Assembly (NCBI RefSeq): GCF_003337245.1
Contig: NZ_QPJE01000009.1
Location: 1-64,000 of the forward strand
Origin: Halanaerobium sp. MA284_MarDTE_T2
GTDB lineage: Bacteria > Bacillota > Halanaerobiia > Halanaerobiales > Halanaerobiaceae
Length of the DNA: 64,000 nt
Direction of reading: 5' to 3'
Both the position numbers and the translations under genes were made by a program. Below, piece after piece: positions 56,815-57,606 of the stretch. Position 1 is the first letter of the stretch, and each line of letters opens with the position of its first letter. A model generated the notes under the pieces. The model did not search any database and was not told where the DNA came from. It saw only the letters and a program-made list of their open reading frames with translations.

Positions 56815-56883
56815 GAAAATCCCTCCTCTTTTCATCAACCCTTATTTTATCATAAATATTTTATTTTTTACAGGTTTAATCAT

Positions 56884-56915
56884 AAAAAAACGGTAAAGAG
56901 AGTGCACTCTTTACC
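56884..56915 (-). terminator. Terminator below the thioredoxin 3' region
   Basis: GGTAAAGAG (56892-56900) and CTCTTTACC (56907-56915) pair perfectly; the minus strand continues GTTTTTTT. It lies 370 nt past the thioredoxin stop, so the transcript would include the 209-nt structured region. Confidence 0.88.
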
Positions 56916-57020
56916 ATTAATTAAATGTTAAACCATACATTAATATCCTACTTATAGTTTATCATTTTTAAGCTGTAAACTTAAAAGCAATTTAGGAGTT
57001 TCCCCAAAATTTATTTTCAA

Positions 57021-57229
57021 GCTGCAAAAAGGGGGCTTTAGTCATCAACGAAATTTTTAGATTTATCTAAAACTCAATTCGGGTGTGAAATAGGACACAC
57101 TAATCAATGAGTCCTCCTGACTCATGATTAGCTCACTCCATCCTGCAGTTCAACCCTATTTCTTCCTTCATTTCGTTAAGATTCATTGACTAAAAATTTC
57201 AATATTCCTGTATCTCCCCTTTTTGCAGC
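57021..57229 (-). ncRNA. Structured 209-nt region: nested inverted repeat, candidate small RNA or MITE
   Basis: Four nested pairings fold it into one long interrupted hairpin: 57021-57034 with 57216-57229 (GCTGCAAAAAGGGG), 57050-57060 with 57190-57200, 57087-57094 with 57155-57162, and 57100-57113 with 57119-57131 (one unpaired base) around a 5-nt loop. An alternative pairing of AACGAAA (57047) with TTTCGTT (57171) exists. It is non-coding, lies between thioredoxin and a terminator, and is a candidate regulatory RNA or degenerate transposon end pair; strand is assigned from context. Confidence 0.5.
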
Positions 57230-57285
57230 AGTATATAAAAAATGGGGAAAGTCCAGAAAAGCAATTGTATCTAAAAATTTAAGAT

Positions 57286-57606
57286 TTATTTTAAGCCAAT
57301 TTTACTGACAAGTTTACCTTTTGGCATATATCCAACAAGCTTGTCTTTAACTTTTCCATCTTCAAAAATCATCATGGTTGGAATACTCATAATTCCATAT
57401 CTGGCTGCAGTTGACTGATTTTCGTCGACATTAAGCTTACATACTTTAATATCTTCACTATATTCTTTTGCAATTTCTTCTACAACAGGAGCCACCATTC
57501 TACATGGTCCACACCATTCTGCCCAGAAATCAACCAATACTGGTTTATCTGATTTTAATACCTCTCTGCTGAAATTTCCATCTGTTACTTTTTTTGGTTT
57601 GCTCAT
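57286..57606 (-). CDS. trxA: Thioredoxin (106 aa)
   Basis: Disulfide reductase: active site [14 protein letters not shown] near residue 30, cis-Pro in [12 protein letters not shown], and [13 protein letters not shown] at the end. Full-length classical thioredoxin. It follows the two-domain disulfide oxidoreductase by 42 nt and may share its promoter; a thioredoxin reductase is not in the window. Confidence 0.95.

Follow-up and report, generated by a model that had tools for sequence, protein, structure and literature searches.

A 64,000-nucleotide stretch of the genome of Halanaerobium sp. MA284_MarDTE_T2 (RefSeq assembly GCF_003337245.1, contig NZ_QPJE01000009.1, positions 1 to 64,000 of the forward strand; hereafter the window) contains a long nested hairpin between a thioredoxin-like gene and a terminator-like stem-loop, which raises the question of whether the hairpin belongs to a regulatory RNA, to a mobile DNA element, or to an element that carries an RNA. 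A reading made from the letters of the window (the sequence-only reading) had placed the hairpin at 57021–57229 and likened it to 6S RNA or to a miniature inverted-repeat transposable element (MITE), with an alternative pairing as a possible switch. The hairpin was found to be the inner part of a 264 bp element present in 48 copies in the same genome, and it is highly probable that this element is a MITE with a partner insertion sequence (IS) and a conserved structured RNA core. This assessment does not extend to the binding of CsrA, which is considered separately below.

Copies of the element and their target-site duplications

A DNA search of the genome scored 40 copies with 97–100% identity, and a search with the pattern of the apical hairpin found 48 places (46 exact and two with one mismatch), with no match to the reversed control pattern. 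The copies mostly start with CTGG- or ATAG-ACTTTCCCC and end with GGGGAAACTCCT, with few variants. Exact target duplications of at least 8 bp flank 44 of the 48 copies, compared with 0.35% of cross-paired flanks in the same search. The search for further copies that had been proposed was therefore productive, and the MITE idea was borne out, as the element is short and non-coding, has many near-identical copies with target duplications, and has ends in common with an autonomous element described below. The ends of the copies and the flanking duplication set the full unit at 56993–57256, and the narrower limits given in the sequence-only reading correspond to a real inner part of it. The parts of the window copy are as follows.

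56993–57256, minus strand: whole mobile element, 264 bp (limits from the 48 copies and the flanking duplication)
56983–56992: target-site duplication, copy 1, AAAAGCAATT on the plus strand, 10 bp
57257–57266: target-site duplication, copy 2, AAAAGCAATT on the plus strand, 10 bp
57240–57256, minus strand: element 5′ end, CTGGACTTTCCCCATTT, the same as in the IS4-like element
56993–57009, minus strand: outer part of the element 3′ end, a AAAATTTGGGG-type end, AATTTTGGGGAAACTCCTA (pattern search and IS ends)
57073–57169, minus strand: conserved three-way-junction core (covariance model R1, 94.7 bits)
57135–57149, minus strand: hairpin 1, with AGGAT as its loop and a single G.G mismatch in the stem of the window copy
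57101–57130, minus strand: hairpin 2 and its helix, loop AGGAG (pattern and alignment)
57022–57072, minus strand: rod 3′ arm (fold and arm pairing test)
57170–57228, minus strand: rod 5′ arm (fold and arm pairing test)

The minus strand was taken as the sense strand because the thioredoxin-like gene reads on it. The nested rod is real, as both strands of 57000–57260 fold far below the energies of shuffled sequences (−75.0 kcal/mol with z −6.9 for the plus strand and −82.8 kcal/mol with z −5.9 for the minus strand, with none of 200 shuffles as low in either case).

Shorter relatives that retain the ends of the element were also found, with lengths of ~190 bp (L072), ~112 bp (L070 and L073) and ~50 bp (L071). 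These derivatives lack the core and carry target duplications, and L070 and L073, which lie at separate sites with flanks of their own, are joined internally at the same point. The element thus seems able to move without its core, unless L070 and L073 acquired their shared junction independently. A core that seems dispensable is what would be expected of a plain MITE, in which the fold arises simply from long inverted repeats and any RNA is without function; long palindromes are usual in MITEs. The evidence that bears against this explanation comes from the core itself.

Old, diverged right ends and mini-elements of ~50 bp with the ends of the element were seen at L079 and L081–L083 and in the flanks of L010, L012 and L022, and the element family has therefore been resident in this genome for a long time. 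A second, diverged core subfamily adjoins element copies (L014, 1719–1816, G000 C2:125071–125168; and the flank of L048); it scores 70.3 bits and begins ACAAAAAGGGTATTTGCG.

A conserved three-way-junction RNA core

A Blast search of 100 related genomes gave matches in six, five of them to the core at 69–79% identity and the sixth to a 27-bp piece. A structure-blind alignment of eight cores revealed a three-way junction in which eight of 25 pairs had changed on both sides with pairing kept. When 59 genomes of the class were searched with the covariance model R1, 16 gave a core match, which is weak in one case; the R1 alignment of 33 distinct sequences had 94.2% of paired cells. A second model, R2, built from 27 sequences, detected the core in 23 of 398 genomes of the phylum when ten places were scored per genome (17 outside the class, several weakly), and in 12 of 20 chosen genomes of the class at E up to 0.01. 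In the resulting 60 distinct sequences, 93.4% of cells are paired and 24 of the 25 pairs have two-sided changes. The covariation score is 0.710, compared with 0.196 for shuffled data and at most 0.120 for slid structures, and none of 500 shuffles reached any of five measures. Covariation in relatives, on which the sequence-only reading had made its proposal depend, is thus strong.

The loop sequence GGA is found in hairpin 2 in 57 of the 60 sequences and in hairpin 1 in 41, in loops that are mostly five bases long. A tandem G.A loop was read by eye in the rod. On the thioredoxin strand G.U pairs outnumber A.C combinations (32 versus 14), and the core matches span genomes of 32–72% GC. Covariation and conserved loops across this range, seen in the structure-blind alignment as well, the excess of G.U on one strand, and the homology with a published RNA motif described below all argue against a functionless fold, which is unlikely despite the core-less derivatives.

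Some observations count against the conserved RNA. Hairpin 1 has CGA rather than GGA in 17 of the 60 sequences, and only 38 have GGA in both loops. The large core alignment is fitted to the model, and for this reason the 62-nt arms, which lie outside the model, were tested on their own. Over 59 loci, the arms paired with their own partner at a mean of −41.4 kcal/mol versus −16.7 kcal/mol with the partners of other loci, and pairing went beyond the 1% shuffled level at 33 of the 59 (14 of 17 outside the class). However, 26 loci failed at this level, L220 and L222 being among those that pair poorly.

One genome of the same order (G029) gave 21 R2 matches, many of them weak, which possibly represent a further subfamily, and two core loci (L159 and L174) have 59–60% GC.

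The bubbled shape of the rod and an alternative pairing of AACGAAA with TTTCGTT had led to the suggestion of 6S RNA or a riboregulatory switch. No 6S RNA match was obtained in the window at the Rfam gathering score, nor among the nine weak matches in 56850–57300 at E up to 10. The alternative pairing exists in the window copy, but in an alignment of 26 sequences, the window type among them, it can form in only 92 of 182 cells. Together with the 48 dispersed copies, these results leave either a 6S RNA or a switch extremely improbable. Other known RNA families were also considered, and Rfam searches at the gathering score and at relaxed E gave nothing convincing for the element.

Relation to TwoAYGGAY and possible link to CsrA

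The Rfam family TwoAYGGAY (RF01731, clan CL00106) was found to match exactly over one distant core match (44.1 bits, cut-off 43). A search of 36 genomes with RF01731 at E up to 1 gave matches in six genomes, three of them over the cut-off and the Halanaerobium genome not among them; R2 recovers each of the six loci taken from this search (five at E < 1e-5, the sixth at 0.0016), and two were already known as R2 matches. One copy in G039 passes both models (51.7 bits against RF01731, 84.7 bits against R2) and is otherwise like the neighbouring copies; an extra base in its second loop (AAGGAC) may account for its detection by Rfam. The relaxed Rfam list for the window element includes CsrB (10.4 bits, E = 1), in hindsight a member of the TwoAYGGAY clan. 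On this sequence evidence, the window core is homologous to TwoAYGGAY and appears to form a diverged branch of it. The two have in common a pair of hairpins, mostly GGA-looped in the present core, on a common stem, outer helices, and tandem GAs in the stem, noted for TwoAYGGAY in PMC4333381 and read by eye in the present core. They differ in loop length, the present loops being in most cases shorter by one base, and in the frequent CGA of hairpin 1. RF01731 matched neither the window copy at the gathering score nor any other part of its genome, and dispersed mobile copies are unmentioned in the passages covered of PMC2864571, PMC4333381, PMC11701678 and PMC11661157.

A table from 2010 gives TwoAYGGAY as a probable RNA (PMC2864571), and a later analysis based on motif matching predicted that it binds CsrA, in a paper in which CsrA-sequestering RNAs outside Gammaproteobacteria are a standing prediction (PMC4333381). 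The core resembles CsrB/RsmZ-type CsrA-sequestering RNAs in its GGA hairpin loops closed by C-G and in the Rfam clan that these have in common with TwoAYGGAY. CsrB has many GGA loops and one dedicated gene, whereas the window RNA has two conserved loops and many dispersed copies, and its binding is only predicted.

A csrA gene is present in the Halanaerobium genome. The GGA loops, the prediction in the literature and the presence of csrA suggest that the core may bind CsrA, a tentative prediction to which we give somewhat less than an even chance. Other results speak against it. Hairpin 1 often has a CGA loop, and three genomes bearing the core (G014, G193 and G361) gave no csrA match. csrA was found in 31 of 34 bearers of the core versus 20 of 26 non-bearers of the class, and in the phylum set in 21 of 23 bearers versus 285 of 398 genomes overall; csrA is common anyway, and the excess in bearers is too small to carry weight.

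The probable partner transposase

A search of three genomes for the DDE_Tnp_1 domain gave seven matches in the Halanaerobium genome, one of which sits in a 1.5-kb element that has the outer ends of the MITE and, as judged by eye, the 10-bp duplication TTATATTTAG. This element is broken, with frames of only 106, 82 and 159 aa. The 159-aa transposase piece matches 14 of 101 genomes, and several of the 14 were found to carry ~1.5-kb elements with GAGTTTCCCC/GACTTTCCCC ends. The three IS copies listed from relatives each have a single frame of 420–422 aa, and all three proteins pass the Pfam DDE_Tnp_1 cut-off (35.7–36.9 bits, cut-off 23). The ends and the domain score link the MITE to IS4-like insertion sequences, but the same three proteins are below all NCBIfam cut-offs for IS4, IS701 and IS1634 (the best, to the IS4 equivalog, being 52.1 bits versus 160). 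The common ends suggest that an IS4-like element of this type is the mover of the MITE. An IS remnant with the same type of ends lies directly beside an inserted element copy (L029/L133, G000 C7:102735–103169, with the remnant at C7:103011).

Insertion beside promoters

Promoters were sought as TTGACA-N16–18-TATAAT reading outward from the ends of the element, with mismatches counted over the 12 bases. A perfect TTGACA was found 6–24 nt outward on one side of 17 of the 48 copies, starting 11–14 nt out in every case, compared with 0.4% of 1920 random flank places. A promoter with up to two mismatches lies beside one end of 28 of the 48 copies, compared with 0.4% of 9600 random places, and one with up to three mismatches beside 33, compared with 2.8% of 9600; the random rates for promoters are per flank, and those for either flank would be about twice as high. 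IS copies are beside a promoter in 12 of 14 cases, over a wider range of offsets (10–20) than that of the random rates. None of the 48 copies lies inside a gene as judged by a simple open reading frame (ORF) heuristic, by which 33 are between co-directional genes, 10 between divergent and three between convergent genes, with two that could not be assigned. The immediate surroundings of the window copy are as follows.

56951–56979, minus strand: promoter-like site beside the insertion, TTTACA at 56979–56974, a spacer of 17 nt and TATAAG at 56956–56951, with two mismatches in 12 bases
57286–57606, minus strand: upstream gene of 106 aa, probably thioredoxin-like, a name that fits the WCGPC in its ORF
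56889–56918, minus strand: downstream terminator-like stem-loop (terminator scan)

The promoter beside the window copy is a consensus match only, and a stricter promoter scan omits TTTACA-N17-TATAAG.

The idea that the RNA core itself directs insertion to promoters was also considered and was not supported. In four genomes where the core has other ends, copies examined at offsets of 4–24 nt had a promoter in only two of 40 cases (0/16 in G039, 1/9 in G038, 1/9 in G147 and 0/6 in G109), with copies of unrecognised ends left out (4/20, 1/10, 1/10 and 3/9 respectively). As promoter sites follow the MITE and IS copies and not the cores with other ends, it is the IS4-like machinery, and not the RNA, that goes with promoters. 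No description of IS4-like insertion beside promoters was found in a literature search of titles and the beginnings of abstracts, with subscription journals mostly outside its reach.

The location just upstream of promoters is also compatible with a transcription insulator, in which the A-run and T-run of the arms (GCAAAAAGGGG...CCCCTTTTTGC) could act as a terminator in both directions in front of the adjoining promoter. However, the T-run is missing from GC-rich homologues and the terminator scan omits the rod, although the stem and loop limits of the scan may exclude a rod of this kind. We regard an insulator as distinctly unlikely.

The account of a MITE moved by a promoter-seeking IS has its own difficulties, as four of the 48 copies have no 8-bp duplication, 15 have no promoter within three mismatches at the expected distance, and the assembly yielded no intact partner transposase, although contigs broken in repeats could hide one. 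Four contigs (L075–L078) start inside a copy of the element. The assembly thus records a recent burst of copies but no intact form of the cognate transposase.

The core between other ends and its distribution

Sets of near copies with ends of their own were found in G147, G109, G038 and G039. In G038, G039 and G147 the ends are of a GATT type with duplications of 6–7 bp, and the identity between a copy's own flanks is 0.65–0.85 versus 0.48–0.60 for cross-paired flanks, a modest signal because the sites are AT-rich. In G109, the ends are GGCTCTTTT with duplications of ~8 bp (flank identity 0.77 versus 0.39, six copies). The ends that enclose the core are therefore of at least three kinds.

A multi-copy family with duplications in several genomes could be explained if the core were a recognition structure needed by the mobility machinery, folded as RNA or as single-stranded DNA, which could fold alike. 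This is improbable, as one core is found between different ends with duplications of 8–10, 6–7 and 8 bp, and the core-less derivatives, two of them with one internal junction, keep both the ends and the duplications.

In G285, RF01731 gave 20 matches, and 19 aligned copies form a dispersed repeat; six of its copies (L244–L249) have an exchanged left part, as if two types of element had recombined. In G039, 15 strong core matches and a sixteenth, weaker one share a strand at C1:1940000–1985000 (L175–L177), mostly ~2 kb apart. A cassette system was considered for this array and rejected, as the core lies among repeated frames that are Rhs-like by ORF reading, and the array is read as block duplication.

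A viral or plasmid vehicle was not supported, the element having no match in phages and plasmids and the degenerate hairpin pattern none in viral contigs. The same pattern, matched exactly, was found in 13 stretches of genome contigs, 11 from Candidatus Frackibacter sp. WG13 and two from one Halanaerobiales metagenome-assembled genome; it is too narrow to pick up most of the family covered by the covariance models. The repeats bcr1–bcr18 of the Bacillus cereus group, likened here by description, are similarly intergenic and MITE-like, some of them with a conserved RNA structure and present in transcripts, but bcr1 is described as specific to that group (PMC3446304) whereas the present core is found in 17 genomes outside its class.

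Proposed mechanism and implications

The element is probably a non-autonomous transposable element with a structured RNA as passenger. An IS4-like DDE transposase would recognise both ends in trans and insert the element with a stagger of 8–10 bp, often just upstream of a −35 box and in either orientation, a placement by which genes and the promoter core would be spared. On the thioredoxin strand, the interior is predicted to fold into a long rod topped by the three-way junction, with two hairpins showing GGA loops. The most likely role predicted for this RNA, carried in neighbouring transcripts, would be to bind dimeric CsrA through the two loops, so that CsrA would be sequestered or the host transcript brought under CsrA.

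More broadly, a CsrA-binding RNA may have become a mobile cassette that spread through Bacillota between unrelated DNA transposon ends, and here a promoter-seeking IS4-like transposase would have seeded ~50 copies beside promoters, giving a dispersed selfish or domesticated CsrA network; this is speculative, and we think it rather less likely than CsrA binding as such. MITEs and the motif are known kinds, and the element is read as a variant of them, a MITE that has a promoter-seeking IS4-like partner and, as its cargo, a diverged RNA of the TwoAYGGAY type. No description of the combination of a Halanaerobium MITE, a structured RNA, a promoter-aimed IS and CsrA was found in titles and the beginnings of abstracts, most subscription journals being outside the scope of the search.

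If this is correct, the orphan TwoAYGGAY would gain a biology, its relatives forming the interior of mobile repeats that are dispersed through the genomes of several lineages, and a mobile core would explain its scattered, multi-copy distribution. The prediction of CsrA-sequestering RNAs outside Gammaproteobacteria would become directly testable in one genome with ~50 copies. The findings also point to targeting by a bacterial transposase whose elements land immediately upstream of −35 boxes and leave genes intact, a possible counterpart of the safe-haven targeting of yeast retrotransposons.

Rfam searches of the homologues returned a group II intron only for 20 loci, and a cobalamin riboswitch in addition to the TwoAYGGAY match for 19 loci. 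A group II intron fragment was also detected in the window itself, at 556–745 on the minus strand (RF02001, 36.8 bits, cut-off 32).
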